28,730 bases of DNA from a virus (IMGVR_UViG_3300032307_000722:1-28730), one strand, 5' to 3'; counted from the first letter of the stretch, positions 1-14,252 are shown. The notes: generated by a model from the sequence alone, not told the origin. A program made the numbers and translations.

Positions 1-8
1 CAATAATT

Positions 9-92
9 GGGAGAGTAATCACAGCGGCCTGTGACCCCGTCTTGAAAACGGGCGGTACTGAAAGGTATGGGGATCGACACCTCACTCTTCCG
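9..92 (+). tRNA. tRNA-Ser(TGA)
   Basis: Seven-pair acceptor GGGAGAG/CTCTTCC, anticodon stem CCCGT/ACGGG with loop CTTGAAA, long class II variable arm, T stem TGGGG/CCTCA with an ATCGACA loop instead of TTCGANN. Discriminator G fits serine. No CCA is encoded here or in any other tRNA of the array. Confidence 0.93.
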
Positions 93-101
93 CAACAATA
101 A

Positions 102-174
102 CTAGGTGTAGCTCAGATGGTAGAGCGGGTGGTTTGGGACCATCAGGCCGCAGGTTCGATCCCTGTCACTTAGA
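102..174 (+). tRNA. tRNA-Pro(TGG)
   Basis: Cloverleaf with acceptor CTAGGTG/CACTTAG, D stem GCTC/GAGC, anticodon loop TTTGGGA (anticodon TGG) and a standard TTCGATC T loop. Discriminator A. Confidence 0.95.
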
Positions 175-178
175 CAAA

Positions 179-254
179 GTCTTCGTAGCTCAGCTGGTTT
201 TAGAGCACCTCACTTTTAATGAGGGGGTCACAGGTTCGAACCCTGTCGGGGACA
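179..254 (+). tRNA. tRNA-Lys(TTT)
   Basis: Acceptor GTCTTCG/CGGGGAC, anticodon stem CCTCA/TGAGG with loop CTTTTAA (TTT), T arm ACAGG/CCTGT. Discriminator A. Confidence 0.95.
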
Positions 255-323
255 CAAAAATTTAGTAAAACTGAGCGATTGTTACCAAAAAATGGTTACT
301 TTTGTTCTGTAAAACTAAAACAA
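255..323 (+). other. structured spacer between tRNA genes
   Basis: This gap is not random: TTTAGT (262-267) can pair with ACTAAA (313-318), enclosing a second inverted repeat around a run of six A. It may be an RNA-processing or protective hairpin. No gene is seen. Confidence 0.35.
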
Positions 324-397
324 GCACTCTTAGCTCAGATGGTAGTAGCGGTTGTCTTACATACAACAGGTCACAGGTTCGATCCCTGTAGAGTGTA
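324..397 (+). tRNA. tRNA-Val(TAC)
   Basis: Acceptor GCACTCT/AGAGTGT, anticodon stem GTTGT/ACAAC with loop CTTACAT (TAC), T arm ACAGG/CCTGT, discriminator A. Confidence 0.93.
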
Positions 398-402
398 CAA
401 AA

Positions 403-483
403 GGGAGAGTTGAGCAATTGGTTGGCTCAGCAGACTGTAAATCTGTCGCGAAAGCCTTGGGGGTTCGAGTCCCTCCTCTCCCA
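403..483 (+). tRNA. tRNA-Tyr(GTA)
   Basis: Acceptor GGGAGAG/CTCTCCC, anticodon stem GCAGA/TCTGT with loop CTGTAAA (GTA), long variable arm as expected for bacterial tRNA-Tyr, discriminator A. Confidence 0.95.
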
Positions 484-488
484 CAAAA

Positions 489-560
489 GGATCAGTAGCT
501 TAATGGTGAAGCACTTGACTGTTAATCAAGGGATTGTAGGTTCGAGTCCTGCCTGATCCG
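489..560 (+). tRNA. tRNA-Asn(GTT)
   Basis: Acceptor GGATCAG/CTGATCC, anticodon stem CTTGA/TCAAG with loop CTGTTAA (GTT), discriminator G as usual for Asn. Confidence 0.95.
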
Positions 561-565
561 CAACC

Positions 566-638
566 GCTCATGTAGCTCAATTGGTAGAGCACTTGTCTGA
601 TACACAAGAGGTAATGGGATCGTAACCCGTCATGAGCA
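566..638 (+). tRNA. tRNA-Ile(GAT)
   Basis: Acceptor GCTCATG/CATGAGC, anticodon stem CTTGT/ACAAG with loop CTGATAC (GAT). The T loop is ATCGTAA rather than TTCGANN. Discriminator A. Confidence 0.93.
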
Positions 639-642
639 CAAT

Positions 643-726
643 GGAAAGTAAACCTTGATGGCGATAGGGTCCGCCTGCTAAGCGAGATGTACCTTCGGGT
701 ATTTGGTTCGATTCCAATGTCTTCCG
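643..726 (+). tRNA. tRNA-Ser(GCT)
   Basis: Class II tRNA: anticodon loop CTGCTAA (GCT), variable arm closed by a TTCG tetraloop (GTACC-TTCG-GGTAT), T loop TTCGATT, discriminator G. The acceptor GGAAAGT/GTCTTCC and the anticodon stem each carry one mismatch, so it is somewhat degenerate. Confidence 0.85.
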
Positions 727-732
727 CAAAAA

Positions 733-800
733 CCCGTGTGATCAGGGATCAAAGTTGGCTCATATCCGACTTTAGAGTGGTTCGATACCACTACACGGGA
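733..800 (+). tRNA. tRNA-Met/Ile2(CAT)
   Basis: Acceptor CCCGTGT/ACACGGG, anticodon stem GTTGG/CCGAC with loop CTCATAT (CAT), T arm AGTGG/CCACT, discriminator A. Only 68 nt, with a short D arm. It lacks the three G-C pairs of an initiator anticodon stem, so it is elongator Met or an AUA-reading Ile2; sequence alone does not decide. Confidence 0.85.
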
Positions 801-970
801 CAAAAAAGATTGGTGTAATCGTTAGTTAGGGTGAACAGTTCATTACTTTGAAACTACTATGTAACATACTCTAAAAATAGTGTTTAATTACGTAAACGGA
901 CATGAAGATATGGGTATGGGTCAACAACACACCTCACGTGGAGTGGGGAGTTCCGAAATCGTGGGTCTTT
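801..970 (+). other. candidate structured RNA, copy 1 of a repeated 3' module
   Basis: Not a recognisable tRNA. AAAGA (806-810) can pair with TCTTT (965-969). The 3' part holds CGTGGAG (937-943) followed by TCCGAAATCGTGGGTC (952-967), which recurs with one gap at 8212-8237 in another inter-tRNA gap. GTTTA/TAAAC and AGTT/AACT hairpins are possible in the 5' part. Function unknown. Confidence 0.4.
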
Positions 971-985
971 GATATTAAAAATTAA

Positions 986-1191
986 AAATTAGAAACCTTC
1001 GAAAAAGAAACATTTATTAAATTTGATAACCTTGATGGTCATTGGTTATCACCAGTTCCCTCCGAGAGAGAATGGCAAAAAGAAAAATTACTTGAGATAT
1101 TCGGACATGAAAATGCGGGTCCAAGATGGCAGTATCTCAACGGATTAATTCATATGGCATTACAATACATTGAATTAACCAAAGAAGAATA
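986..1191 (+). pseudogene. small ORF lacking a start codon (likely damaged)
   Basis: An open frame after a stop at 983-985 encodes about 67 residues beginning KLETFEKETFIKFDNL and ending IELTKEE, but there is no ATG, GTG or TTG near its 5' end; the first in-frame Met lies only 13 residues from the stop. The upstream bases ATTAAAAATTAGAAACC resemble the start of the gene at 2361 (ATTAAAAATTATGAAC), so loss of TG from ATGGAAACC would explain the missing start. The composition looks coding. Protein family not recognised. A sequencing error is equally possible. Confidence 0.55.
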
Positions 1192-1201
1192 AAATTACAT
1201 G

Positions 1202-1274
1202 GTGTATGTAGCTCAGTTGGCAGAGTGCTTGATTGTGGTTCAAGAGGTCATGGGTTCGACCCCCATCATACACA
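1202..1274 (+). tRNA. tRNA-His(GTG)
   Basis: Acceptor GTGTATG/CATACAC, anticodon loop TTGTGGT (GTG), T arm ATGGG/CCCAT. A G at 1201 could serve as G-1, but position 73 is A where bacterial tRNA-His usually has C. Confidence 0.93.
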
Positions 1275-1280
1275 CAACAT

Positions 1281-1352
1281 ACCTTCGTAGCTTAATGGAA
1301 AAGCCTCAGAATACGAATCTGAAGATCGGGAGTTCGACCCTCTCCGAAGGTA
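1281..1352 (+). tRNA. tRNA-Arg(ACG)
   Basis: Acceptor ACCTTCG/CGAAGGT, anticodon stem TCAGA/TCTGA with loop ATACGAA (ACG, presumably deaminated to inosine), discriminator A. Confidence 0.95.
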
Positions 1353-1353
1353 C

Positions 1354-1508
1354 AAAAGATGATACAAAGCGTAGAATGACAGACGTGGAGAGACGTGTCG
1401 CAAGGGTACACACTAAGGATAAGTAATAATGCTCAACTCTCTTATGGTGTGTGAAGCGTCGTAGAAATACGAATCCCAGATTCCTGATAAAGTCATTCAT
1501 CATCTTTT
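1354..1508 (+). ncRNA. compact structured RNA of unknown class
   Basis: The ends form a perfect 10-pair helix, AAAAGATGAT (1354-1363) with ATCATCTTTT (1499-1508), stacked on a perfect 7-pair helix GAATGAC (1374-1380) with GTCATTC (1492-1498). Inside are a hairpin built from ACACAC-TAAG (1408-1417) and CTTA-GTGTGT (1441-1452) and a GNRA hairpin CGTA-GAAA-TACG (1460-1471). There is no T loop or anticodon arm, so it is not a tRNA. It lies between tRNA-Arg(ACG) and tRNA-Arg(TCT) and is probably co-transcribed and released by tRNA processing. Family not recognised. Confidence 0.7.
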
Positions 1509-1512
1509 ACTT

Positions 1513-1584
1513 GCCCCTTTCGTATAACGGAAGTACAACGCTCTTCTAAGGCGTCAGGTCGGAGTTCGAATCTCTGAGGGGGTA
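1513..1584 (+). tRNA. tRNA-Arg(TCT)
   Basis: Acceptor GCCCCTT/AGGGGGT (two G-T pairs), anticodon stem ACGCT/GGCGT with loop CTTCTAA (TCT), T stem CGGAG/CTCTG, discriminator A. Confidence 0.93.
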
Positions 1585-1586
1585 CA

Positions 1587-1625
1587 ATAAACTAAAAATT
1601 GCCACACTAAACTTGGTTAGTTTAT
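1587..1625 (+). other. inter-tRNA hairpin
   Basis: ATAAACTAA (1587-1595) is perfectly complementary to TTAGTTTAT (1617-1625), closing a loop that can itself form CTAA/TTAG. There is no T-tract, so it is more likely a processing or spacer hairpin than a terminator. Confidence 0.45.
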
Positions 1626-1650
1626 CGTAGCAAAAATAGGTTTACTATAC

Positions 1651-1722
1651 ACGTCTATGGTGTTAACGGTAGCATGGAGGTCTCCAAAACCTAAGGTCTG
1701 AGTTCGAATCTTAGTAGGCGTG
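1651..1722 (+). tRNA. tRNA-Trp(CCA)
   Basis: Acceptor ACGTCTA/TAGGCGT, anticodon loop CTCCAAA (CCA) on an AGGT/ACCT stem, T stem CTGAG/CTTAG, discriminator G as usual for Trp. Confidence 0.95.
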
Positions 1723-1755
1723 CAAATTTGATTTGGTGAATTAAAAATAAATTCG

Positions 1756-1763
1756 TATCTTTG
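1756..1763 (+). promoter_or_regulatory. TAnnTTTG promoter (-7 element)
   Basis: TATCTTTG, the Bacteroidota -7 consensus, lies 4 nt before the ATG at 1768. Transcription should start at or next to the start codon, giving a leaderless mRNA. Confidence 0.75.
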
Positions 1764-1767
1764 TCTT

Positions 1768-2271
1768 ATGAAAACAAACTTACCATACTGTTCAAATAAT
1801 GTTGGGATCATTGGTTATCAGGATTCCGAAATTGCGAAAAAAGAAAATAACGATTGTGTTGTTAGAGCATTTGCATCGGCGTTTGAAATCTCTTACGATA
1901 AGGCTCACAAATACGTTAAAGAAAAATTTGGAAGAAAAGATCGTTGTGGTACTTATGGTACCGTTTTTAAAATGGTTGAGTTGGCAAAAAAACAAACTCA
2001 AATAAACCATAAGAAGATTAAACCAATTGGTGTAAGAAAACCTATGGGTAATTCGGTGGTTTATTCCTTAGATTATACGGTTAAAGTAAAAAATAAAAAA
2101 GTTAAAAGACAAATGACCGTTGGGACATTTATAAAAGAAAATCCAATTGGGACATTTTTCGTATTAGTTAGTCGACACGCCTTTACTATTAAAGATGGGA
2201 TCGTACACGGTAATTACGAAGATTCAACCAAAAAAAGAAAAATTATGAAACACGCATTTCAAATTAAATAA
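1768..2271 (+). CDS. putative papain-like cysteine peptidase fold protein
   Basis: A 167-residue protein. An N-terminal NDCVVRAFASAF motif is followed by SYDKAHKYV, a GTYGT turn, and near the end FFVLVSRHAFTIKDGIVHGNYED. A Cys in NDC(V/T)VRA, a later His in a GxxxVxxxxHA strand and an acidic residue in DG is the arrangement seen in papain/C39-like proteins common in phages, so these may be a Cys-His-Asp set. This is inferred from motif order; activity and substrate are unknown. The gene has its own TAnnTTTG promoter with almost no leader, and its stop codon abuts tRNA-Phe, so the two are probably one transcript. Confidence 0.7.
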   Translation: MKTNLPYCSNNVGIIGYQDSEIAKKENNDCVVRAFASAFEISYDKAHKYVKEKFGRKDRCGTYGTVFKMVELAKKQTQINHKKIKPIGVRKPMGNSVVYSLDYTVKVKNKKVKRQMTVGTFIKENPIGTFFVLVSRHAFTIKDGIVHGNYEDSTKKRKIMKHAFQIK

Positions 2272-2344
2272 GGATCGGTAGCTCAGTTGGTAGAGCGTTG
2301 GATTGAAGATCCAAGCGTCGGGGGTTCGACTCCCTCCCGGTCCA
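2272..2344 (+). tRNA. tRNA-Phe(GAA)
   Basis: Acceptor GGATCGG/CCGGTCC, anticodon stem TTGGA/TCCAA with loop TTGAAGA (GAA), T arm GGGGG/CCCTC, discriminator A. Begins at the base after the preceding stop codon. Confidence 0.95.
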
Positions 2345-2360
2345 CAAAAAATTAAAAATT

Positions 2361-2813
2361 ATGAACAGAGTATTTAGAACGGTACAGGGCGAATCAGTGG
2401 ATGTGGTATCTCACACCTTGGATGTTTTAAAAGAATGTCCATATGTTGAGGTTCATATTGGTACTGATTCTCAGAACCACAGGAGAAGTACGGTATATGT
2501 GACCGTAATTGCTTACCGATATGGTAACAGAGGTGTTCATTACATCTTACATAAACAAAAAATGAAAAAAATTAAGGATAAGTGGACTAGATTGTGGAAT
2601 GAAGCGGATTATTCAATTGAGGTTGCGGAATGGTTAACCAAAAAAGTGAAAGTCCAAGTTGAAATTGATTTGGATTACAATAGTCAAGAAAAACATTTTA
2701 GTTCAAAACTTGTTCAACCGGTTGTTGGATGGGCAATGTCTCTTGGATACAAGACAAACATTAAACCTAACAATCAAATAGCAACTAAAGCGGCAGATCA
2801 TCACTGCCGTTAA
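2361..2813 (+). CDS. DUF458/YkuK-family RNase H-like protein
   Basis: A 150-residue protein matching the YkuK (DUF458) family: an early VHIGTDSQN strand with an Asp typical of RNase H-fold active sites, a central VQVEIDLDYN strand giving a second acidic cluster, and a C-terminal IATKAADHHC segment with a late acidic/His pair. Length is close to the family norm. The family is predicted to be a nuclease of the RNase H superfamily, with no assigned role that I know. Its position between tRNA-Phe and tRNA-Cys would suit a role in RNA maturation or decay, but that is a guess. Translation starts at ATG after ATTAAAAATT, with no Shine-Dalgarno. Confidence 0.8.
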   Translation: MNRVFRTVQGESVDVVSHTLDVLKECPYVEVHIGTDSQNHRRSTVYVTVIAYRYGNRGVHYILHKQKMKKIKDKWTRLWNEADYSIEVAEWLTKKVKVQVEIDLDYNSQEKHFSSKLVQPVVGWAMSLGYKTNIKPNNQIATKAADHHCR

Positions 2814-2815
2814 TT

Positions 2816-2886
2816 GGTCCTGTGTCCGAGTGGTTAGGAGGCGGTCTGCAAAACCGTTTACGTTGGTTCAAATCCAATCGGGACCT
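2816..2886 (+). tRNA. tRNA-Cys(GCA)
   Basis: Acceptor GGTCCTG/CGGGACC, anticodon stem GCGGT/ACCGT with loop CTGCAAA (GCA), discriminator T, the Cys identity base. Confidence 0.95.
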
Positions 2887-2893
2887 CAAATAA

Positions 2894-2967
2894 GCCTCCA
2901 TGGCGGAATTGGTATACGCGTGTGATTTAGGATCACAATTTTACAGGTTCGAGTCCTGTTGGGGGTA
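2894..2967 (+). tRNA. tRNA-Leu(TAG)
   Basis: Leu-type D arm (GCGGAATTGGTATACGC), anticodon stem TGTGA/TCACA with loop TTTAGGA (TAG), T arm ACAGG/CCTGT, acceptor GCCTCCA/TGGGGGT, discriminator A. The variable region is unusually short for Leu (about 5 nt). Confidence 0.9.
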
Positions 2968-2981
2968 CAAATAAGGTCAAT

Positions 2982-3320
2982 ATGTTAAGACAATTTAAAT
3001 TTTATAAAGACGAGGGGACGTGGTATGTCGATCTACCCGAATGGGAAGGTAGTCGGGCAGATCTGGCAATGGTCTCAGGTGCCGATACAATGTTAGACAT
3101 TGTTTCTCAGGGTGAGAATGATATAAAGGTATTACTATCAACCGAAGAATTTAACGGATCCAATGAATTAAAGTTCCTACGTGAATCACCCGAAGTTGGT
3201 GAGGGATCTTGGTACCTAATGAAAACATATAAAGGGATTGAATATGATCTTGAATTATGGTTATGTGATGTCACCAAGTTTGTTTTCGGTAATTTCCCTA
3301 AAAACATTTACATATCATAA
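2982..3320 (+). CDS. conserved hypothetical protein (possibly DUF6717-like)
   Basis: A 112-residue soluble protein rich in acidic and aromatic residues. It opens MLRQFKFYKDEGTWYVDLPEW; a WYVDLPEW-type start is what I recall of DUF6717, but I cannot confirm the match. No catalytic motif, signal peptide or membrane segment. It directly follows tRNA-Leu, probably in the same transcript. Function unknown. Confidence 0.7.
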   Translation: MLRQFKFYKDEGTWYVDLPEWEGSRADLAMVSGADTMLDIVSQGENDIKVLLSTEEFNGSNELKFLRESPEVGEGSWYLMKTYKGIEYDLELWLCDVTKFVFGNFPKNIYIS

Positions 3321-3330
3321 TATATTTACA
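3321..3330 (+). promoter_or_regulatory. putative phage promoter (ATATTTATA class)
   Basis: TATATTTACA, 13 nt before the ATG at 3344. It sits in a longer block (CATTTACATATCATA upstream) repeated before the gene at 3829. Confidence 0.55.
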
Positions 3331-3343
3331 ATAAAGAATTGAT

Positions 3344-3787
3344 ATGAAAAAAGTCATTAGATTAACAGAATCGGATTTAACAGGGATTGTTAAACGAGTT
3401 ATTAAAGAAACAAAATCAAATAAAGACGATAGTTCAATACAGGATAAGATTAAAATGAAAAAGATATCAACAGAAGAAGAGTTTAGATTATTATATGGTG
3501 GTAATAATAAACAAAACCCACCATTTAATGTAGGTGATAAACTGAAACAAATATGGAGAGTTGATAATAATAATCTCATAAAAGATGGTAGAGAAGAATT
3601 TGAATTTGTTGGTATGAAAGATGATTTGATGTTATTGAAGACATTAAACATTTATGCGGCATATTCGGAAGATACTATCAATCCGTTGGTGCTTAAACAA
3701 GTTAAAAAAGCGGGGTTTAAACCTATAATTGGTGACATTAAACAATTACATTATATGTATGCTGATAGATATGATGTAGTTGGGTAA
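3344..3787 (+). CDS. hypothetical protein with N-terminal LTES tag
   Basis: A 147-residue protein. The first 22 residues, MKKVIRLTESDL then GIVKRVIKE, form a basic amphipathic helix shared almost exactly by the proteins at 3829 and 4423 and in shorter form by the lysozyme at 9181. The rest (middle NPPFNVGDKLKQIW, end YADRYDVVG) is unlike the other tagged proteins. The tag ends in I-K-E, which fits the (L/I)-x-E site of T4-type prohead proteases, so it may be a removable capsid-targeting peptide. That is inference by analogy with T4 internal proteins. The body is not recognised. Confidence 0.7.
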   Translation: MKKVIRLTESDLTGIVKRVIKETKSNKDDSSIQDKIKMKKISTEEEFRLLYGGNNKQNPPFNVGDKLKQIWRVDNNNLIKDGREEFEFVGMKDDLMLLKTLNIYAAYSEDTINPLVLKQVKKAGFKPIIGDIKQLHYMYADRYDVVG

Positions 3788-3806
3788 AAACATTTACATA
3801 TCATAG

Positions 3807-3817
3807 TATATTTATAA
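3807..3817 (+). promoter_or_regulatory. putative phage promoter (ATATTTATA class)
   Basis: TATATTTATAA, 12 nt before the ATG at 3829, preceded by CATTTACATATCATA as in the copy before 3344. Confidence 0.6.
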
Positions 3818-3828
3818 TAAAAAACATT

Positions 3829-4416
3829 ATGAAAAAAGTTATAAGATTAACAGAATCTGAATTATCAAATCTTGTTAAACGAGTAATTAAGGAATCCTCT
3901 GATTTCACAAAAGAAATTGCAAAAGATCTATTCAAAAGATTACCAAAAAATGAGTTAACCGTAGATGAATTTCATGAATACATGAAAGAAAAAAATGCTC
4001 CGGACTCAATTATTCATGAAGTTCTTAATCATTTGGAGATGATGGGTTTCCCATTCAAAATGAAAACACATAGAGAACCTGACTTTACACATGATGACGA
4101 TTCTGAGGAATATGAAATGCTTTCAGATGATCCAACCGATTGGTATTTTGAGGTTTACGTTGGAAATGACCCAAGTGATTATTGGGACCGTACAAGAGTA
4201 TTTATGACTTTAGATCCGGATTATGTTGATACTGAAGTTGGTTCACATAATGTCCCAGTAAATATATTAAGTATTCTTGATGAATGTGGGTTTGATTACG
4301 ATGATACTGAAGACGGACACTGGTATTTAAAATCTGAATTTAACCATTTGACTAAAGAAGAATTAACGGATTGTTTATTATCTAAAGGATTAAATCTTAC
4401 TGACTTTGATTTGTAA
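3829..4416 (+). CDS. hypothetical acidic protein with N-terminal LTES tag
   Basis: A 195-residue protein. It starts MKKVIRLTESELSNLVKRV and the tag ends V-I-K-E as in its neighbour. A helical segment follows (about residues 24-65, TKEIAKDLFKRLPKNEL), then a strongly acidic, aromatic region (DDDSEEYEMLSDDPTDWYFEVYVG) and a C-terminal VNILSILDECGFDYDD part. No known enzyme motif. It is the second of three consecutive tagged genes and has its own ATATTTATA promoter; the next gene begins 6 nt after its stop. Function unknown; packaging into the capsid or export is possible. Confidence 0.7.
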   Translation: MKKVIRLTESELSNLVKRVIKESSDFTKEIAKDLFKRLPKNELTVDEFHEYMKEKNAPDSIIHEVLNHLEMMGFPFKMKTHREPDFTHDDDSEEYEMLSDDPTDWYFEVYVGNDPSDYWDRTRVFMTLDPDYVDTEVGSHNVPVNILSILDECGFDYDDTEDGHWYLKSEFNHLTKEELTDCLLSKGLNLTDFDL

Positions 4417-4422
4417 AATAAT

Positions 4423-4803
4423 ATGAAAAAGGTAATCAAACTTACAGAATCCGATCTAACCAACATTATAAAGAGGGTTATTGAGGAATCTAAATCACTT
4501 GAAAAAGACAGGACAATACAGGACAAAATTAAATTCGTTAGAGGTATATCCAATGAAATGAAAGATATAGCATTAGATCACCTTAAACAATACACAAAGG
4601 CAAGTAAAGGTAAAATTACAGGGTTAGAATTACACTCTGATTTAAAGAAGAAACTTAAAGAAAATAATTTACCTGATGGGTTTGATATGGGCATTGACAA
4701 AGATGGTTATTTTATTCATACACATAGAGGTAGATCTAAATCTTACCAATCACCGGAAAAAATATCAATCAAAGACATTAAGTTTATAGATTCAACGGGA
4801 TAA
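4423..4803 (+). CDS. hypothetical protein with N-terminal LTES tag
   Basis: A 126-residue lysine-rich protein starting MKKVIKLTESDLTNIIKRVI, with tag end I-E-E. The body carries QDKIKFVRGISNEMKD, related in wording to IQDKIKMKK in the protein at 3344, and ends DIKFIDSTG. It follows the previous gene by 6 nt with no promoter motif of its own, so it is likely cotranscribed with it. Function unknown. Confidence 0.7.
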   Translation: MKKVIKLTESDLTNIIKRVIEESKSLEKDRTIQDKIKFVRGISNEMKDIALDHLKQYTKASKGKITGLELHSDLKKKLKENNLPDGFDMGIDKDGYFIHTHRGRSKSYQSPEKISIKDIKFIDSTG

Positions 4804-4840
4804 AAAAAATTTAAAAACTTGACACTTTTAAAAAGTATCA

Positions 4841-4850
4841 TATATTTATA
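4841..4850 (+). promoter_or_regulatory. putative phage promoter (ATATTTATA class) with TTGACA
   Basis: TATATTTATA preceded by TTGACA at 4819-4824 with a 16-nt gap; 22 nt before the micro-ORF ATG at 4873. The only copy here with a sigma70-like -35 match. Confidence 0.55.
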
Positions 4851-4872
4851 ACAAAACATTAAAAAAACGCAA

Positions 4873-4941
4873 ATGAAAAATTTACACATATTATTGATAG
4901 GGGCGGATTTAGCTGAGACAACCTTCAAGGAGATGGTGTAA
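4873..4941 (+). CDS. 22-residue micro-ORF between promoter and terminator
   Basis: ATG to TAA encodes MKNLHILLIGADLAETTFKEMV. The unit is minimal but complete: an ATATTTATA promoter upstream and an intrinsic terminator at 4964-4992, so it makes a separate short transcript. The peptide is hydrophobic at the N-terminus (HILLIGA) with a charged end, too short for a firm membrane call. The alternative is that the transcript is a small RNA and the frame is incidental. Confidence 0.4.
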   Translation: MKNLHILLIGADLAETTFKEMV

Positions 4942-4963
4942 TATTTCTATATATTAAAATTGA

Positions 4964-4992
4964 AACCCATCTCCAAAAGAGGTGGGTTTTTT
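4964..4992 (+). terminator. intrinsic terminator
   Basis: Ten-pair stem AACCCATCTC/GAGGTGGGTT with loop CAAAA, then a T-tract. Ends the transcript of the tagged genes and micro-ORF and separates it from the next tRNA promoter. Confidence 0.85.
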
Positions 4993-5029
4993 GATTTTAT
5001 AAGTTTTTTTAAAAAAAAATAAAAAAAGA

Positions 5030-5061
5030 TTTGGCAGTTTGGAAAAAACTATCTATCTTTG
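5030..5061 (+). promoter_or_regulatory. TAnnTTTG promoter of tRNA operon
   Basis: TTTG at 5030 and TATCTTTG at 5054-5061, spacing 20 nt. The sequence GATTTGGCAG around the -33 box is repeated at the 7111 promoter. Confidence 0.8.
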
Positions 5062-5077
5062 TGGAACAAAAGAAAAA

Positions 5078-5090
5078 GGTTCTTTGACAT
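5078..5090 (+). promoter_or_regulatory. boxA-like antitermination leader
   Basis: GGTTCTTTGACAT between the promoter and tRNA-Leu. Resembles the E. coli rrn boxA core CTCTTTAACA and recurs after other stable-RNA promoters in the window. Confidence 0.55.
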
Positions 5091-5101
5091 ATTGGTAAAA
5101 T

Positions 5102-5181
5102 GGTTCGGTGGTGAAATTGGTATACACGCTGCGTTTAAGCCGCAGTCCATATGGTTGTGGGTTCGAGTCCCACCCGGACTA
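5102..5181 (+). tRNA. tRNA-Leu(TAA)
   Basis: Acceptor GGTTCGG/CCGGACT, anticodon stem CTGCG/CGCAG with loop TTTAAGC (TAA), class II variable arm TCCATATGGT, T arm GTGGG/CCCAC, discriminator A. Confidence 0.94.
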
Positions 5182-5214
5182 CAAAAAAAGTTTGTTATAA
5201 TAAAATTAAATTAT

Positions 5215-5247
5215 TATCTTTGTTAAACAAAAGAAAAGTTCTTTGAA
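5215..5247 (+). promoter_or_regulatory. TAnnTTTG promoter with boxA-like leader
   Basis: TATCTTTG at 5215-5222 followed by GTTCTTTGAA at 5238-5247, upstream of the initiator-like tRNA-Met. Confidence 0.75.
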
Positions 5248-5259
5248 TTAATAACATAT

Positions 5260-5332
5260 TGCGGGATGTGGAAGATGGTTATCCGCTCGGTCTCATAAGC
5301 CGAGATCGCAGGTTCGAGTCCTGCTCCCGCTA
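5260..5332 (+). tRNA. tRNA-Met(CAT), initiator-like
   Basis: Anticodon stem TCGGT/GCCGA with loop CTCATAA (CAT). With the T stem GCAGG/CCTGC fixed, the acceptor is TGCGGGA/TCCCGCT: position 1-72 is an unpaired T-T and the other six pairs form. A 1-72 mismatch is the formylation hallmark of initiator tRNA. The body resembles bacterial fMet, but the anticodon stem lacks three consecutive G-C pairs, so initiator identity is likely, not certain. Confidence 0.85.
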
Positions 5333-5338
5333 CTAAAT

Positions 5339-5419
5339 GCTGACGTACCAGTGGATGCTTATATCATCTATGCCTGTAGCGGTAAGTTTAAAACGTTGGT
5401 TCGAATCCAACCGTCAGTA
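5339..5419 (+). tRNA. atypical tRNA-like gene, no clear D arm (possible TAT anticodon)
   Basis: Acceptor GCTGACG/CGTCAGT and T arm GTTGG-TTCGAAT-CCAAC are perfect. The 47 nt between do not fold as D plus anticodon arms. GGATG-CTTATAT-CATCT would be an anticodon-type hairpin with TAT (reading AUA), but it follows the acceptor almost directly, leaving no D arm and an over-long 3' side. CTTA in that loop can pair with TAAG downstream, a pseudoknot alternative. Confidence 0.6.
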
Positions 5420-5425
5420 CAATAA

Positions 5426-5497
5426 GCGGGTGTCGTATAATGGCTATTACTCCAGACTTCCAATCTGGCGATGAGGTTTCGACTACCTCCACCCGCT
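5426..5497 (+). tRNA. tRNA-Gly(TCC)
   Basis: Acceptor GCGGGTG/CACCCGC, anticodon stem CCAGA/TCTGG with loop CTTCCAA (TCC), T stem GAGGT/ACCTC, discriminator T as in bacterial Gly. Confidence 0.94.
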
Positions 5498-5502
5498 CAA
5501 AT

Positions 5503-5572
5503 GGGCCTGATGCCGACGGCAGGTCGACTGATTTGCAATCAGATCGTTTGGGTTCGATTCCCACAGTGTCCA
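5503..5572 (+). tRNA. tRNA-Ala(TGC), slightly irregular
   Basis: Anticodon stem CTGA/TCAG with loop TTTGCAA (TGC). The acceptor includes a G3-T70 wobble, the AlaRS identity element, but 3' CAGTGTCC needs one bulged T to pair with GGGCCTG, and the T stem is 4 bp. Probably functional, with a small insertion. Confidence 0.8.
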
Positions 5573-5604
5573 CAAAAGAGAAAAGCGGAAGGTAATAATA
5601 TTCG

Positions 5605-5676
5605 CGGCGGTTAGCTCAGTTGGTTAGAGCATCGGCGTAGAGCCGAGGGTCACAGGTTCGAGTCCTGTACTGTCGT
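5605..5676 (+). tRNA. atypical tRNA with 5-nt anticodon loop
   Basis: Acceptor CGGCGGT/ACTGTCG, D arm GCTC/GAGC and T arm ACAGG-TTCGAGT-CCTGT are all normal. The anticodon arm is TCGGC-GTAGA-GCCGA: a perfect stem with only five loop bases, two short of the required seven, so no anticodon can be read. Discriminator T. The loop GTAGA resembles GTTGA in the element at 7345. Confidence 0.75.
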
Positions 5677-5694
5677 GGTAAAATACTGAAAGCA

Positions 5695-5807
5695 GTAAAA
5701 GGTTCTGTAAAAGTAGTAACCTGACAATCCGATGAGTTGCAAATCGTCCGATTGGTAAAGTTAGGTCTTACAAGGATTCGCGGTCTTAGGTAAGATGTTC
5801 CTTTTAC
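5695..5807 (+). ncRNA. cloverleaf-like structured RNA, not a tRNA
   Basis: Closing helix GTAAAA (5695-5700)/TTTTAC (5802-5807) surrounds three arms: GGTT/AACC (5701-5721), CAATC+CGAT/ATCG+GATTG (5725-5754) and TCTTAC/GTAAGA (5766-5795). This is a four-way junction like a tRNA, but no TTCGA T loop, no 7-nt anticodon loop and no tRNA consensus is present. A TACTG-AAAG-CAGTA hairpin at the 5' edge is an alternative. It lies between an atypical tRNA and tRNA-Asp. Confidence 0.55.
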
Positions 5808-5818
5808 ACTCTTTAATT

Positions 5819-5891
5819 GGTCTCGTGGTTGAATGGTCACAATTCCACCCTGTCACGGTGCGAGGTACGGGTTCGAATCCCGTCGGGACCG
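5819..5891 (+). tRNA. tRNA-Asp(GTC) copy 1
   Basis: Acceptor GGTCTCG/CGGGACC, anticodon loop CTGTCAC (GTC) on a four-pair stem, T loop TTCGAAT, discriminator G as usual for Asp. Confidence 0.92.
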
Positions 5892-5897
5892 CCAAAT

Positions 5898-6046
5898 GGC
5901 TCTATAGTAAGCACGGTAACGCAGCTACGAGTGGGTAAATGATGGTAATATGTCTATGGCACTCCTTAATACTAGGATCGGAGTTACTTAAGTCCAAGGC
6001 ATATTACAAGTAATTTATAAGGTGGGTTCGATTCCCACTGGAGTCA
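5898..6046 (+). tRNA. 149-nt tRNA-like RNA with greatly extended anticodon domain
   Basis: Acceptor GGCTCTA/TGGAGTC and T arm GTGGG-TTCGATT-CCCAC are intact, and a D-like GTA/TAC arm follows the acceptor. In place of an anticodon arm is a long helix: TAAAT/ATTTA plus perfect GTAATATG/CATATTAC, capped by ACTCC-GGAGT. The insertion is too small for a usual group I intron. It may be a tRNA with a small insertion, or a tRNA-like RNA resembling the tRNA-plus-long-helix plan of tmRNA, though no tag frame is evident. Confidence 0.6.
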
Positions 6047-6092
6047 CAAAAAAAAGTTTAAAAAAGATGATGTGGAATAAAATAAAAATGCA

Positions 6093-6100
6093 TATCTTTG
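6093..6100 (+). promoter_or_regulatory. TAnnTTTG promoter
   Basis: TATCTTTG 12 nt before tRNA-Glu. No boxA-like leader follows, unlike the other tRNA promoters. Confidence 0.7.
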
Positions 6101-6112
6101 TTAAACATTAAT

Positions 6113-6186
6113 CGCCCGTTGGACAAGCGGTTTAAGTCGTCTCCCTTTCACGGAGAAGAGCATGGGTTCGAATCCCATACGGGTGA
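6113..6186 (+). tRNA. tRNA-Glu(TTC)
   Basis: Acceptor CGCCCGT/ACGGGTG, anticodon stem TCTCC/GGAGA with loop CTTTCAC (TTC), T arm ATGGG/CCCAT, discriminator A. Confidence 0.93.
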
Positions 6187-6191
6187 CAAAC

Positions 6192-6235
6192 CTCAGGAGT
6201 AATTAACCTGAGACTGACAGGTTCGAAACTGTCGA
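6192..6235 (+). other. two-hairpin element with T-arm-like loop (tRNA remnant?)
   Basis: CTCAGG/CCTGAG (6192-6212) is followed by GACAG-GTTCGAAA-CTGTC (6216-6233), which looks like a T arm with an 8-nt loop. No D or anticodon arm fits. TAATTAA in the first loop can pair with TTGATTA just downstream, but that segment is also the acceptor strand of the next tRNA. Either a decayed tRNA or a minimal tRNA-like helix. Confidence 0.35.
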
Positions 6236-6236
6236 T

Positions 6237-6308
6237 TGATTATGGTGTAAAGGCGCACAGAGACCGTAACTGGATCTCAGGATTAAGGTTCGAATCCTTT
6301 TTAGTCAA
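6237..6308 (+). tRNA. atypical Gln-type tRNA with 11-nt anticodon loop
   Basis: Acceptor TGATTAT/TTAGTCA, D arm GTGTAAAGGCGCAC (Gln-like) and T arm AAGG-TTCGAAT-CCTT are recognisable. The anticodon arm is GAGA/TCTC closing eleven bases (CCGTAACTGGA), where CC/GG could pair inside. No anticodon can be assigned with confidence. As no other Gln tRNA is present, this may be its damaged or modified form. Confidence 0.6.
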
Positions 6309-6311
6309 CAT

Positions 6312-6423
6312 AGTCAGGTGTCGGAATGGCGCTAAATATTTAATCACGGAAAAAGCTGGTCTTATAGGCTTACGAGTCGTGTCAACAGCTAAAATATTAC
6401 AGGTTCGAGTCCTGTCCTGACTA
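6312..6423 (+). tRNA. 112-nt Leu-type tRNA-like RNA with rearranged middle
   Basis: Shares acceptor AGTCAGG/CCTGACT and T arm ACAGG-TTCGAGT-CCTGT with the elements at 8034, 8284 and 8492. The middle forms AATATTT (6335-6341)/AAATATT (6392-6398), then AGCTG (6354-6358)/CAGCT (6386-6390), while CACG/CGTG could add a pseudoknot. There is no standard anticodon arm. Confidence 0.55.
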
Positions 6424-6424
6424 C

Positions 6425-6612
6425 GATGATCAACACGGTGGCTTCGTGTTAAAAAGATGAATAACGTGCCGGTGATTACCAATGGAATTGTTTGAAATAG
6501 TAACAATGTACGTGTCACGAAAAGAGACCTCATCAGGAAGGAGACCTATAGACGTATAGGTCGTGAAAGTCCGCAACTAAACCTACTTAGACTTTGAAAG
6601 GTAAAGTCAAAT
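6425..6612 (+). ncRNA. structured RNA of unknown class between tRNA genes
   Basis: GATGA (6425-6429)/TCATC (6530-6534) encloses AACACG/CGTGTT and ATTGTT/AACAAT hairpins. Downstream stand a perfect eight-pair GACCTATA-GACG-TATAGGTC hairpin (6543-6562) and GACTTT/AAAGTC (6590-6608). There is no T loop and no reading frame of note. It ends two bases before tRNA-Asp, so tRNA processing would define its 3' end. Not a family I recognise. Confidence 0.6.
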
Positions 6613-6614
6613 TT

Positions 6615-6686
6615 GGTCCATTGGTGTAGTGGCTAACATACATCCCTGTCACGGATGTGCCGAGAGTTCGATTCTCTCATGGACCG
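6615..6686 (+). tRNA. tRNA-Asp(GTC) copy 2
   Basis: Acceptor GGTCCAT/ATGGACC, anticodon stem CATCC/GGATG with loop CTGTCAC (GTC), discriminator G. A better-formed Asp than the copy at 5819. Confidence 0.94.
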
Positions 6687-6700
6687 CTAAAATTACTATT

Positions 6701-7096
6701 ATGACACTAAAAGAAAAAATTAATGCGGATTTTATGATCGCATTTAAAAGTAAGGAAATGGATAAGAAAAACTTCCTTGGGGTTGTTAAAGGTGAGATCC
6801 AAAATGAAAAAGGTCGTTCAGGTAATGTTAATGATGAGGTTGTCCTTGGGATCCTTCGTAAAATGGAGAAATCATTAAAACAAACAAACACAGAAGAATC
6901 TCTTATAGAATTGGAATATATTAAACCATATTTACCACAACTTATGTCACGAGATGAGATCATTTCAGTTATTAAAGAAATGTCTCAAAATGGTCACGAT
7001 AATGTGAGTAAAATTATGAAACAATTCAATACTGTTTATAAAGGAAAGGCAGATAATTCAATTGTTTCTGAAGTAGCGAAAGAAATTTTTTATTAA
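6701..7096 (+). CDS. yqeY: GatB/YqeY-domain protein
   Basis: A 131-residue protein matching the YqeY family end to end: MTLKEKINADFMIAFKSKE at the start, ELEYIKPYLPQLMSRDEI in the middle and YKGKADNSIVSEVAKEIF at the end. YqeY is the stand-alone form of the tail domain of GatB, the tRNA-binding part of Glu/Asp-tRNA amidotransferase; its own role is poorly defined. A longer frame running back through tRNA-Asp exists, but the ATG at 6701, 14 nt after the tRNA, restores the normal family N-terminus. Lying in a tRNA array beside Asp tRNAs, it may act on tRNA charging or amidation, which is inference. Confidence 0.88.
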   Translation: MTLKEKINADFMIAFKSKEMDKKNFLGVVKGEIQNEKGRSGNVNDEVVLGILRKMEKSLKQTNTEESLIELEYIKPYLPQLMSRDEIISVIKEMSQNGHDNVSKIMKQFNTVYKGKADNSIVSEVAKEIFY

Positions 7097-7110
7097 AATT
7101 TAAAAAAAGA

Positions 7111-7170
7111 TTTGGCAGATTAAAAAATTCTACTTATCTTTGTAAAACAAAAGAGAAAACGTTCTTTGAA
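7111..7170 (+). promoter_or_regulatory. TAnnTTTG promoter plus boxA-like leader of large RNA B
   Basis: TTTG at 7111, 20-nt gap, TATCTTTG at 7135-7142, then GTTCTTTGAA at 7161-7170. The -33 region GATTTGGCAG is identical to that at 5029. Confidence 0.8.
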
Positions 7171-7344
7171 TTATTGTGTTGTTCCCTTGAGAAAGGAATT
7201 AGGATGAAGTGTCCGAGAATTCTAGACACACAACACAGAGGAGTTCTCGACCTCAAATCACAGTTGTAATGTAACTTCACACGGATGGAGTATTTAAAAT
7301 TGTAAATCCTTAAATGGATAAATGCAAACTAAAACAACTGTAGG

Positions 7345-7428
7345 GATCAGGAGTGTAATTAGACATTGGTGTCGATCCCTTCCGTTGAGGAAGGTTTCTC
7401 ATTGTAGGTTCGAATCCTATCCTGATTA
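7345..7428 (+). tRNA. atypical tRNA-like unit inside large RNA B
   Basis: Acceptor GATCAGG/CCTGATT and T arm GTAGG-TTCGAAT-CCTAT are normal. A GACA-TTGG-TGTC hairpin stands where a D arm should be. The anticodon arm is CCTTCC-GTTGA-GGAAGG, a six-pair stem on a five-base loop (or five pairs on CGTTGAG, lacking T33). No anticodon assigned. Confidence 0.6.
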
Positions 7429-7986
7429 CAAAATAGAGAGAACCGTGAGTCTGCGGATGGAAACAACTACAGGACGAGCATACGTCATACTCTATTTAAG
7501 ACCCCACGATTGGCAGACGTATCCGACTGTCATGGTGTGTGATCCTGACTTGAAGGCTTCAAGGCTATGGGGGAGGCTACACGAATGGTACTATCAAGAT
7601 TCCGAAAGGACTCGTTCTTAACCGATCGAATCGAGATTTGGGAGAAGACCATGTATCAAGATAGTATTAGGATTCCCCATTATGGATGGAGGGGGTTAGG
7701 GATCTTAAATGATCGTAATACAATCCACAAGTTGTAGAAACACTGGACAATTCTACAATATACACTCTGATTCCGAGTGAGACCCGCCACGTAACTTTGG
7801 GGGTAAGGGAAAACCGTCCTGAGGATAGCACTGAACGATTAACAGTAAAAACTATGACACTCATGATTAGTAGAATAGGTTAAGACGAAGTGTGAAAGTA
7901 GAAACCCACCGTGGATGGTTACTATGGTCTAACGAATCTTAGACATATCGGTGAGGGATATATATAGATACCAATATAGAAAATTT

Positions 7987-8031
7987 AAAGGTTCTCCTGG
8001 TTAGGTACAGGGACGATTCAGAACCTTTTTT
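7987..8031 (+). terminator. intrinsic terminator of large RNA B
   Basis: AAAGGTTC (7987-7994) pairs perfectly with GAACCTTT (8021-8028), followed by T residues. Confidence 0.75.
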
Positions 8032-8033
8032 AT

Positions 8034-8114
8034 AGTCAGGTGGCGGAATGGTAGACGCTGTTTTTGGTTATCTTCAAACCATATAATTTACAGGTTCGAG
8101 TCCTGTTCTGACTA
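8034..8114 (+). tRNA. atypical Leu-type tRNA, anticodon unclear
   Basis: Leu-type start AGTCAGGTGGCGGAATGG with GACGC, acceptor partner TCTGACT and T arm ACAGG-TTCGAGT-CCTGT. The best anticodon hairpin is TGGTT-ATCTTCA-AACCA, but it is displaced about five bases 3' of its expected place and would read CTT, which conflicts with the Leu body. A GTTT/AAAC pairing is an alternative. Confidence 0.6.
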
Positions 8115-8260
8115 CAAAAAAAGCCCTCTGCCAAGCGCTTGGTAAGGAACGAAGATAGAGATTACAGATATGGATTGAAATAAAAAATACCTTCGGGTAC
8201 ATCCATATTGGCGTGGAGGCTCTCCGAATCGTGGGTCGGCATTGTTTGTGTGTTCAAGGG
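8115..8260 (+). other. candidate structured RNA, copy 2 of a repeated 3' module
   Basis: ATATGGAT (8168-8175)/ATCCATAT (8201-8208) closes an inner TACC-TTCG-GGTA hairpin. Next come CGTGGAG (8212-8218), a GGAG/CTCC hairpin and TCCGAATCGTGGGTC (8223-8237), the last shared with the element at 801-970. An inverted CCAAG/CTTGG lies near its 5' end. Function unknown. Confidence 0.45.
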
Positions 8261-8283
8261 ATATTTTAAAAACACACATTTTT

Positions 8284-8393
8284 AGTTAGGTGGGCGGAAT
8301 GGTGTCCGTAATGCGGGGTGTTGACTGAAAACGCGGAGTACGATGAGATATTCGTAACAACGTCAACCACAGGTTCAAATCCTGTCCTAACTA
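8284..8393 (+). tRNA. 110-nt Leu-type tRNA-like RNA with rearranged middle
   Basis: Acceptor AGTTAGG/CCTAACT and T arm ACAGG-TTCAAAT-CCTGT. The middle folds as GTTGAC (8320-8325)/GTCAAC (8362-8367) enclosing TACGA/TCGTA (8339-8356); GTGTT-GACTGAA-AACGC is a competing anticodon-type hairpin lacking T33. Confidence 0.55.
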
Positions 8394-8395
8394 CT

Positions 8396-8487
8396 AAGTT
8401 GTGAAAAAATGGATGCATCTGGACCGTTTACTCAGGTAATTTGATTGTCCTTCGGCGGATTGGTGATTGACTACCATTCACAACTTT
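8396..8487 (+). ncRNA. small structured RNA closed by a long helix
   Basis: AAGTTGTG (8396-8403) pairs with CACAACTT (8479-8486), continued by AATGG (8408-8412)/CCATT (8474-8478) across an A-rich bulge. Inside are ACC/GGT and TCC-TTCGGC-GGA hairpins. T residues follow, so it could act as a terminator for the upstream unit or as a stable RNA. Confidence 0.5.
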
Positions 8488-8491
8488 TTAT

Positions 8492-8592
8492 AGTCAAGTG
8501 GCGAAATTGGCAGACGAGCCTCATCACCCTGGGGTAGTATCAAATGAGGGTTAACAATGGATACTGTACAGGTTCGAATCCTGTCTTGACTA
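8492..8592 (+). tRNA. 101-nt Leu-type tRNA-like RNA
   Basis: Acceptor AGTCAAG/CTTGACT, Leu-type D arm GCGAAATTGGCAGACG and T arm ACAGG-TTCGAAT-CCTGT. One nested fold has anticodon stem CCTCA (8519-8523)/TGGGG with a six-base loop TCACCC and a variable arm AGTATC (8536-8541)/GATACT (8560-8565) with an 18-nt loop. CCTCAT/ATGAGG is a competing pairing. No certain anticodon. Confidence 0.6.
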
Positions 8593-8596
8593 CAAC

Positions 8597-8670
8597 GGTC
8601 CTTTAGCTCAGTAGGTTAGAGCAACTGACTCATAATCAGTAGGTCCACGGTTCGAGCCCGTGAGGGACCA
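8597..8670 (+). tRNA. tRNA-Met/Ile2(CAT)
   Basis: Acceptor GGTCCTT/AGGGACC, anticodon stem ACTGA/TCAGT with loop CTCATAA (CAT), T arm CACGG/CCGTG, discriminator A. Fully paired 1-72, so elongator Met or Ile2. Last gene of the array. Confidence 0.94.
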
Positions 8671-8785
8671 CAATAAGATAATAATTTATAATTATCTAAT
8701 GCTAATAAAGAATAAGTAATTGCTAATTATTTAATTTTCAACCACCTAAAAACGTATTTTTTACGTTATTATAAAAAAAAATATT

Positions 8786-12243: not shown

Positions 12244-13127
12244 AAATTAAATTATCCGTTCAGGAAAAGTTTTGTCAGATTCTTTGACAAGTAATTGAGA
12301 TGGTATTCTCTTCTTAGAATGATAAAGATATTGGGCCGTGTATAGTCCATGAAATAAACTACGAAAGTAGGATAAAGTGAGTCAGAAGTGTAACTGATTT
12401 GCGGTTTGAAAACCTGAAAGGGGATTTGAACTTGAGTACACAAGCGGGATACCGCTTAACCTTGAGTACCGAGGGCAACGCTGTAGGGAAACTGGTTAAG
12501 TGATTTGGCGATGTGGGTCGTCCGATTGAGGTGGGAACACCAATAGGAATAACCCGTAGGGATATTGCAAAACATAGGATTATCCAATTCTATTATTGCG
12601 TGTTCCAATATGAGAGGGTACTTAAAACCGAAAGGTATGATAACAAACAGGTGGTGCTGAAATTATCCTTGATGAATCTCTACCAAGGGATTAATCTCGA
12701 AGTAATCTTAAAATATGGAAATGGGGACATTTCAGAGAGTAGTTGAGTATTTCGTTGTTCAAAAGATAACGAAGCCCGTGACGGACCACTACTTTCAAAA
12801 TCCACGACACAAAAACTTTATTTTACATTTAGGAAGTAAAATTCATGATATAACATAAAGCAAAAGTGTCCGTCAGGTGTCAATGAAAGGTGACTACATA
12901 GTAACGAGCTGTTCGTTGCGTAGTGAGACCGCAAGTTGAACTACATTCTTACCAAAAACCTCTATTCCCGCAAGGAAGAGTTGGGGAGGCATCCTCGAAG
13001 AGAGTTAAGTAATGAGAGAGTAATTGATACCTTAAGAAGTGATTGGTCTAACCAATCGTCACTGAGGAATACCATTCAAAAGATGGTGGATAAGTAGGGA
13101 AACAATAATACTACTAAAGGTTCTCAC
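12212..13127 (+). ncRNA. large structured RNA A
   Basis: About 0.92 kb with its own promoter and terminator, no convincing protein and dense local pairing. Hairpins include CTAC-GAAA-GTAG, GGTT-TGAA-AACC, AAGCGG-GATA-CCGCTT, GGTG-GGAA-CACC, ACC-GAAA-GGT, TTCGTT/AACGAA, ATTTTAC/GTAAAAT, AACGA/TCGTT, GATTGGT-CTA-ACCAATC and ACCAT/ATGGT. GACGGAC near 12780 pairs at long range with GTCCGTC near 12868. Many GNRA-type loops suggest tertiary docking, as in GOLLD/ROOL-type giant phage RNAs. It stands directly upstream of SmpB and tmRNA. Class unverified; RNA B looks like a relative by its leader and 3' TAAAGGTTCTC. Confidence 0.68.
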
Positions 13128-13158
13128 AAAAAACTGTAATCTCAGGTTTTTATTTTAA
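13128..13158 (+). terminator. probable terminator of large RNA A
   Basis: AAAACTG/CAGGTTTT stem with one bulged G and a short loop, followed by a T-rich tract. Confidence 0.5.
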
Positions 13159-13228: not shown

Positions 13229-13663
13229 ATGAAAAATTCTGTGAACATAATCAACAAGAAATCAAAATTTGAATATGAGTTTATTCAGGTAGAAATTGCT
13301 GGCATAAAATTATCAGGATCTGAAGTTAAATCTATTAGAATGGGTAAAGCTTCTATTTCTGAAGGGTATTGTTATTTCAATGGGGGTGAATTATTCATCA
13401 AAGGTATGAACATATCGGATTACGGATATGGATCATTCCATGAAACAGTAAGAGATCGTAAACTACTCCTTAAGAAACGACAGTTAAATAATTTGGAGAA
13501 TCAATTAATAAATGGGTTAACGATCATACCTTATCGTCTATTCCTGAATGATAAAGGTTTAATAAAAATTGAGATCGCACTGGCTCGTGGTAAGAAACTT
13601 TACGATAAAAGACAATCAATAAAAGAACGAGACATTGATCGTGATATGAAAAGAGGTAATTAA
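13229..13663 (+). CDS. smpB: SmpB, tmRNA-binding protein
   Basis: A 144-residue protein covering the whole SmpB fold: ISGSEVKSIR-type core seen as KLSGSEVKSIRMGKASISEG (about 29-48), IKGMNISDY, and the C-terminal ARGKKLYDKRQSIKERDI with DMKRGN, the basic tail that enters the decoding site. SmpB binds the tRNA-like end of tmRNA and delivers it to stalled ribosomes. A tmRNA gene lies 0.7 kb away on the other strand, so both partners of trans-translation are present. Own promoter and own terminator, so expressed separately from tmRNA. Slightly shorter than the usual 150-160 residues, with the key tail retained. Confidence 0.95.
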   Translation: MKNSVNIINKKSKFEYEFIQVEIAGIKLSGSEVKSIRMGKASISEGYCYFNGGELFIKGMNISDYGYGSFHETVRDRKLLLKKRQLNNLENQLINGLTIIPYRLFLNDKGLIKIEIALARGKKLYDKRQSIKERDIDRDMKRGN

Positions 13664-13675
13664 ACCTCTTTTTTT
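13651..13675 (+). terminator. intrinsic terminator of smpB
   Basis: AAGAGGT/ACCTCTT stem followed by a T-tract; the smpB stop codon is in the loop. Confidence 0.85.
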
Positions 13676-13709
13676 ATGCACTAAAATATAATATCCATAC
13701 AACACTAAT

Positions 13710-14249: not shown

Positions 14250-14252
14250 ATA

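Follow-up and report, generated by a model that had tools for sequence, protein, structure and literature searches.

Viral tRNA-like elements in which variable inserts with predicted folds take the place of the anticodon arm

Engineered tRNA scaffolds, in which a foreign RNA is carried in the anticodon stem of a tRNA for stability, are man-made. Class II tRNAs (Leu/Ser type) combine their acceptor with a 3-bp D stem, A14, G18G19, a TTCRA T loop, a 15-48 pair and C74, and tmRNA (SsrA), of about 360 nucleotides (nt), joins tRNA-like ends to pseudoknots at the place of the anticodon arm. Phage tRNAs with anticodon-loop mutations bear point changes and still decode (van den Berg 2023, PMC10264068), GOLLD and ROOL are structured phage RNAs of unknown function that lie near tRNA islands (PMC12286853), and the type III toxin-antitoxin RNAs ToxI and CptI are short, pseudoknotted and protein-inhibiting (PMC5086642). 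Here we describe, in the 28.7-kb virus record IMGVR_UViG_3300032307_000722 (hereafter the window, that is, the whole stretch of DNA that was analysed), a tRNA island at positions 1-8671 in which at least eight elements retain the acceptor, the T arm and the elbow of a tRNA yet have no decoding anticodon arm. Four of these (6312, 8034, 8284 and 8492) belong to a scaffold family that has all the class II features listed above and differs from class II tRNAs in lacking the anticodon arm, in carrying an insert of 20-200 nt that is often predicted to be pseudoknotted, and in apparently not decoding. The family resembles tmRNA in its tRNA-like ends and in the position of its pseudoknots; unlike tmRNA, of which the window holds a true and separate copy, the scaffolds are about 100 nt long, keep an intact D stem and carry hundreds of unrelated inserts, and the four window members match neither RF00023 nor the tmRNA model of ARAGORN. 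The mutated phage tRNAs are likewise phage-borne and changed at the anticodon loop, whereas in the scaffolds the arm itself is missing. GOLLD and ROOL share the setting near tRNA islands, but their sequences are unrelated (the scaffold elements have no Rfam match to either) and GOLLD, of about 400 nt or more, has one conserved fold. The likeness to type III antitoxins is a functional analogy only. Searches of the literature, whose coverage is incomplete so that an earlier description may exist, led to PMC12286853 and PMC10264068 but to no such RNA family.

The four window members share both ends and nothing in between. Members of the family have a 5' half (AGTCAGGTGGCGGAATGGTAGACGC) and a 3' half (ACAGGTTCGAATCCTGTCCTGACTA) that hardly vary, with a variable insert between the two. 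Extraction yielded 350 distinct elements in 205 viral loci, with a median length of 104 nt (range 67-241); shuffled sequence yielded none, which excludes chance. These loci were fetched through the constant ends, so that the two totals give no estimate of prevalence and the dominance of the AGTCAGG acceptor is partly a product of selection. Scans found TAGTCAGGTGNCGGAATGG in at least 120 viral stretches, and the 3' half likewise in at least 120. The 5' half was found in four contigs of metagenome-assembled genomes among 84,980 bacterial and archaeal species genomes, and the 50,697 isolate phage records held no complete element, only T-arm/acceptor or D-arm fragments; hence the family is essentially a virus feature. 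Short-loop variants do exist in isolate phages, since the cultured Tenacibaculum phage pT24 (L209, positions 2790-2868 and 3157-3235; L-numbers denote the loci used in comparisons) carries two near-identical 'tRNA-Undet' genes in which the anticodon stem is extended and the loop has 5 nt. Elements agreed in strand with tRNAs in 967 of 967 comparisons and with each other in 405 of 405. Rfam searches of the window and twelve related loci returned only tRNA, tmRNA and GOLLD at gathering scores, the sub-threshold matches being unconvincing.

The tRNA core of the family is under selection: acceptors change in a compensated manner, positions 15 and 48 covary, and C74 is retained. The window acceptors at 8284 and 8492 are swapped on both sides of the stem (Table 1), and other loci have GGTGAGA/TCTCACC, GGTTGGG/CCCAACC, CGAGATA/TATCTCG, AACCAGA/TCTGGTT and AACAAGG/CCTTGTT; the same insert stands on very different acceptors in L165 (GGTGAGA/TCTCACC) and L157. 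The Levitt tertiary pair 15-48 takes the form A-T in 216 insert groups; among the 12 groups with G15 and C/T48, 9 have G-C (covariation p 4e-10). The D arm is of class II type, with GG in the D loop of 327/350 elements; N73 is A in 318/350, and T54T55C56-R57A58 is present in 350/350, a count that the search itself demanded. C74 is encoded after N73 in 349 of the 350 elements versus 270 of 270 ordinary tRNA matches, which suggests the same 3' maturation. By one criterion for both sets (5-bp stem, 7-nt loop and U33), 7 of 251 family members have a canonical anticodon arm; among the other tRNA-scaffold matches from the same loci, 219 of 296 have one. The family thus has the 7-bp acceptor, T arm and elbow bases of a canonical tRNA and lacks the anticodon arm with its 7-nt loop and U33; decoding by its members is excluded or unlikely, as far as sequence can tell.

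A sequence-only reading of this DNA had held that the alterations were specific to the anticodon domain and that random decay should have hit the acceptor stems too, and had named homologues in relatives as one test. Each element that it listed was re-read and compared with homologues, and the specificity is borne out; acceptor changes turned out to be compensated and stems re-formed in the relatives, which is not decay. It is hardly credible that the elements are intron-bearing or neutrally decaying tRNA genes: the surrounding tRNAs are normal, as this would have it, but the insert is not bordered by the two halves of an anticodon arm, its helix A begins directly past the D arm, and orthologous inserts are retained across phages. 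Neutral decay was rejected on the compensation of acceptors and insert helices, and an intron-containing tRNA on the replacement of everything from the D to the T arm, with no recoverable anticodon arm. The same reading's 'tRNA-like regulators' and 'tRNAs with insertions' fit in a broad sense. It had also proposed that the elements might be baits for host anticodon nucleases or versions resistant to them. Nothing but the anticodon loop is lost, and 5605 and 7345, with their contracted loops, could withstand cleavage. However, a loop that a nuclease could bind or cut, or that could serve in decoding, is missing from most elements; a resistant substitute would still need to decode, with changes in its loop, unlike the main family, and the long, unrelated inserts have no common anticodon-like sequence and also occur outside the scaffold. 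The proposal is not supported for the main family and is very unlikely overall; for 5605 and 7345, which seem to have shortened anticodon loops only, nuclease resistance may apply.

Between the constant halves, 369 elements (variants included) fall into 274 unrelated insert groups, 213 of them singletons. A frequent plan is a predicted H-type pseudoknot in which helix A follows the D arm directly and helix B, with its 3' strand, reaches to about 2 nt from the T stem. An undirected pseudoknot scan gave a weak signal; a topology-constrained A-B-A'-B' test against dinucleotide shuffles of each group representative was clearer, with 44 of 249 representatives at p<=0.05 (12 expected) and 21 of 249 at p<=0.01 (2.5 expected), side-by-side helix arrangements being less enriched. 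When helices A and B were predicted on one member and tested on the remaining members, double changes kept pairing in 37 cases and broke it in 12, versus 50 kept and 84 broken for slid partners. The crossing helix of L280, L185 and L203, for instance, reads GAACAC/GTGTTC, GGGTAC/GTACTC and GGTAAC/GTTATC, with two doubly changed pairs. In the window, the 7-bp acceptors of the elements at 6312, 8284 and 8492 are perfect and their T arms good, but the space of the anticodon and variable arms is taken by about 45-65 nt that fold otherwise: crossing helices CACG..AGCTG..CGTG..CAGCT at 6312, GTTGAC..GTCAAC around TACGA..TCGTA at 8284, and at 8492 a predicted pseudoknot CCTCAT..AGTATC..ATGAGG..GATACT (individual p 0.06). 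The 8034 element, of 81 nt, is labelled 'tRNA-???' by ARAGORN. A homologue of the 6312 module stands free in L087, where CACG..CGTG is changed in a compensatory manner to CTCG..CGAG. In the seven-member family A2, 8 of 28 pairs are changed on both sides, which none of 500 shuffles reaches, and half of these pairs fall in the arm at the anticodon-stem position; its predicted crossing helix B is not conserved (34 broken cells), and A2 is therefore described without a pseudoknot, as an extended arm. Such compensatory evolution preserves structure over sequence, unlike antisense seeds, and the loops have no motif in common, so we consider it rather improbable that the elements are small regulatory (antisense) RNAs with stable tRNA ends, even with modules that also stand free and promoters that look operon-like.

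The inserts recur on other acceptors, on other tRNA-like scaffolds and free-standing: besides the 6312 module, that of L173 is free in L249 and L223, and that of L208 is found on a different scaffold in L134. When near-identical inserts from different loci were paired, neither flanking sequence was related in 39 of the 92 pairs. In 12 elements the D loop, too, carries an extra insertion, of 14 nt or more, as a comparison of L197 with L186 or of L263 with L136 shows. Mobile elements and inserts, and constant 25-nt halves around variable DNA, would also be found if these were selfish cassettes, with the scaffold as recombination target, the inserts as passengers and no gain for the phage. Yet the secondary and tertiary pairs of the tRNA and the helices of the inserts are held by compensatory change, and the acceptors diverge while remaining paired, which makes this explanation improbable.

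Beyond the four family members, the elements at 5898-6046 and 6237-6308 are further scaffold types with variable middles. A structured insert of about 95 nt substitutes for the anticodon arm in the former, and 20-40 nt vary between constant D and T arms in the latter (window, L087, L089 and L208). The stem at 7345 is re-formed with other bases in L139, L192 and L199 (CCTTCC..GGAAGG in the window versus CCATTTT..AAAATGG in L139). The element at 5605 had been listed as altered, and its loop does have 5 nt in the window, against 6 nt in L139 and 7 nt in L160; otherwise it seems to be a near-normal tRNA-Ala, the loop being the main difference. The tRNA-Ala(TGC) at 5503-5572 was absent from that list and was missed by ARAGORN and Rfam. 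At 736-802, a CAT-anticodon tRNA has a minimal D arm (GATC AGG GATC), and its acceptor and T stem are compensated in L116.

Table 1. Coordinates, counted from the first letter of the window, of the tRNA-like elements, leaders and neighbouring genes.
Feature	Position	Strand	Remarks
Bacteroidota-type promoter -7 box (TATCTTTG) and boxA-like GTTCTTTGA leader	5054..5087	+	promoter/boxA match
Bacteroidota-type promoter and boxA-like leader, second copy	5215..5246	+	
tRNA-like element GCTGACG/CGTCAGT, without clear D arm	5339..5419	+	L116, 99% identical
tRNA-Ala(TGC), G3:U70, rudimentary D arm	5503..5572	+	L198 homologue with full 7-nt TGC loop
tRNA-Ala-like gene, 5-nt anticodon loop, no C74 after it	5604..5677	+	
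Related tRNA-like element, acceptor GGCTCTA/TGGAGTC	5898..6046	+	homologues in L108, L139, L156 and L193, acceptor compensated
Second scaffold type TGATTATGGTGTAAAGGCGCAC..AGGATTAAGGTTCGAATCC..TTAGTCA, variable insert	6237..6308	+	shared ends, differing inserts in L087, L208 and L089
tRNA-like scaffold, acceptor AGTCAGG/CCTGACT	6312..6423	+	family member
Bacteroidota-type promoter and boxA-like leader, third copy	7135..7169	+	
tRNA-like element, hairpin CTTCC GTTGA GGAAG (5-nt loop) at the place of the anticodon arm	7345..7428	+	
Shortest family member in the window, 31 nt from D to T arm, displaced 5-bp/7-nt hairpin	8034..8114	+	
tRNA-like scaffold, compensated acceptor AGTTAGG/CCTAACT, long insert	8284..8393	+	homologue in L290
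tRNA-like scaffold, compensated acceptor AGTCAAG/CTTGACT	8492..8592	+	family member
GOLLD RNA	12735-13148		in the window
SmpB	13229-13663		in the window
tmRNA	14365-14762	minus	in the window
ClpA-type ATPase	17139-19202		in the window

Charging by LeuRS, SerRS and AlaRS is possible without the anticodon. The strongest rival to the reading that we prefer is one of translation mimics, charged independently of the anticodon, that act on EF-Tu, the ribosome or a synthetase, perhaps together with the phage tmRNA, and divert host translation. The retained tRNA core and C74, the Leu/Ser-like class II D arm and the prevalence of A73 are in its favour, as are the SmpB encoded in the window and a tmRNA above cut-off in 23 of 50 scaffold-bearing records. 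On the other side, the hundreds of unrelated inserts are left unexplained, acceptor sequence and N73 vary, SmpB occurs in just 3 of the 50 records, the D stem, unlike that of tmRNA, is intact, and no mRNA-like tag frame was noticed in the inserts, which were inspected by eye only and are often far too short. We regard translation mimicry as unlikely. Phage-encoded SmpB as a partner of the scaffolds was considered and dropped on the same count of records. In the window itself, 13229-14762 looks like a phage trans-translation set, SmpB adjoining the tmRNA on the opposite strand with the ClpA-type ATPase nearby. GOLLD was present in 8 of the 26 scaffold-bearing records tested.

The viruses that carry the scaffolds are large, and the host is probably a member of the Bacteroidota, because the window has three TAnnTTTG promoter boxes with a boxA-like TTCTTTGA behind them, all upstream of odd elements, with none expected from shuffles. 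Many metagenomic viruses have a terminase closely related to that of the window; its relatives among isolate phages are distant, Flavobacterium phages being among the nearest at about 29% identity. The terminases of the records that host scaffolds form at least two deep lineages, 12 records having 67-78% and 7 records about 30% identity to that of the window. A YqeY gene sits within the tRNA island.

Other conserved stretches lie near the scaffolds. The non-coding stretch of about 600 nt at 7430-8030 is 78% identical to L208 4583-5144 and recurs in L249, L276 and L139; it has no Rfam match, and it may be multi-part or pseudoknotted, since its minimum free energy is no better than that of shuffles. 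An element with constant ends TGTTGTTCCCTTGAGAAAGGAA .. AACACAGAGGAGTTCTC and a variable middle occurs at 7167-7260 and in L208 at 1962, 2226, 2412 and 3640, one L208 copy lying within a tRNA-like scaffold. Conserved sequence GCCCTCTGCCAAGCGCTTGGTAAGGAACGAAGATAGAG .. GGCGTGGAGGCTCTCCGAATCGTG is found between tRNA-likes at 8120-8245 and in L208 at 928-1055, and conserved non-coding sequence GTGGAGAGACGTG..CGCAAGGGTACACAC between tRNAs at 1360-1510 and in L208 at 4266-4433, as well as in L173, L188, L249 and L252. The hairpin GACAGCTCGGAAAGACGAGCAACA recurs directly 5' of the acceptors of many scaffolds, for example in L110, L171 and L172.

Comparison across loci shows, at the level of sequence and predicted structure, the anatomy of these elements, their conservation with compensatory change, the loss of the decoding arm, the swapping of modules and the co-orientation with tRNAs. 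The reading that we prefer, a real possibility that still falls short of probable, is that of tRNA-scaffolded RNAs, in which a stable tRNA chassis presents exchangeable folded modules, probably ligands or inhibitors of host factors. The phage would retain the tRNA body (acceptor, D/T elbow, T arm and maturation signals) as the chassis and exchange the anticodon and variable arms for a folded module, often an H-type pseudoknot. The elements would be co-transcribed from the boxA-type promoters and, as tRNA biology suggests, matured by RNase P and RNase Z and given CCA, yielding stable, abundant RNAs. Each module might then bind a particular protein or RNA of the host or of a rival phage, probably as a decoy or inhibitor in defence or counter-defence, and cassette exchange might swap modules when targets change. 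This last step, in which every module would have its own host factor to bind and most likely to inhibit or decoy, is a guess that is more likely wrong than right; it draws on hypervariability with kept structure and on the analogy to pseudoknotted antitoxin RNAs (PMC5086642). A subset of the inserts is, like those antitoxins, predicted to be pseudoknotted; no tandem repeat array or toxin gene was seen, the neighbouring genes of other contigs not having been surveyed for toxins. Several points weigh against tRNA-scaffolded ligands. Tested one by one, only about a fifth of the inserts reach significance as pseudoknots, and simple or branched helices are seen in others (7345, 8034 and family A2). 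No shared insert motif points to a target, the best, GTAAGTCC, occurring in 6 of 197 inserts. The inserts have no Rfam match, be it to an antitoxin or to another RNA family, so that the case for an inhibitor role is one of analogy and hypervariability. Transcription, processing and binding, finally, are inferred from DNA alone. A broader proposal, of a phage RNA 'display' system whose mobile and universally processed tRNA chassis carries a fast-diversifying pseudoknot library of inhibitors against host defence proteins as a general counter-defence arsenal, is speculative and on balance doubtful.

The engineered tRNA scaffold would have a counterpart in phages that, unlike it, appears natural and diverse. 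If confirmed, these elements would mean that the tRNA body serves in nature, and widely, as a scaffold for the delivery and stability of other RNAs, with hundreds of ready variants, and that automated counts of phage tRNAs blend decoding with non-decoding ones; they would provide a new class of candidate RNA inhibitors against bacterial proteins, and they would bear on why big phages hold many 'odd' tRNA genes and GOLLD-type RNAs.

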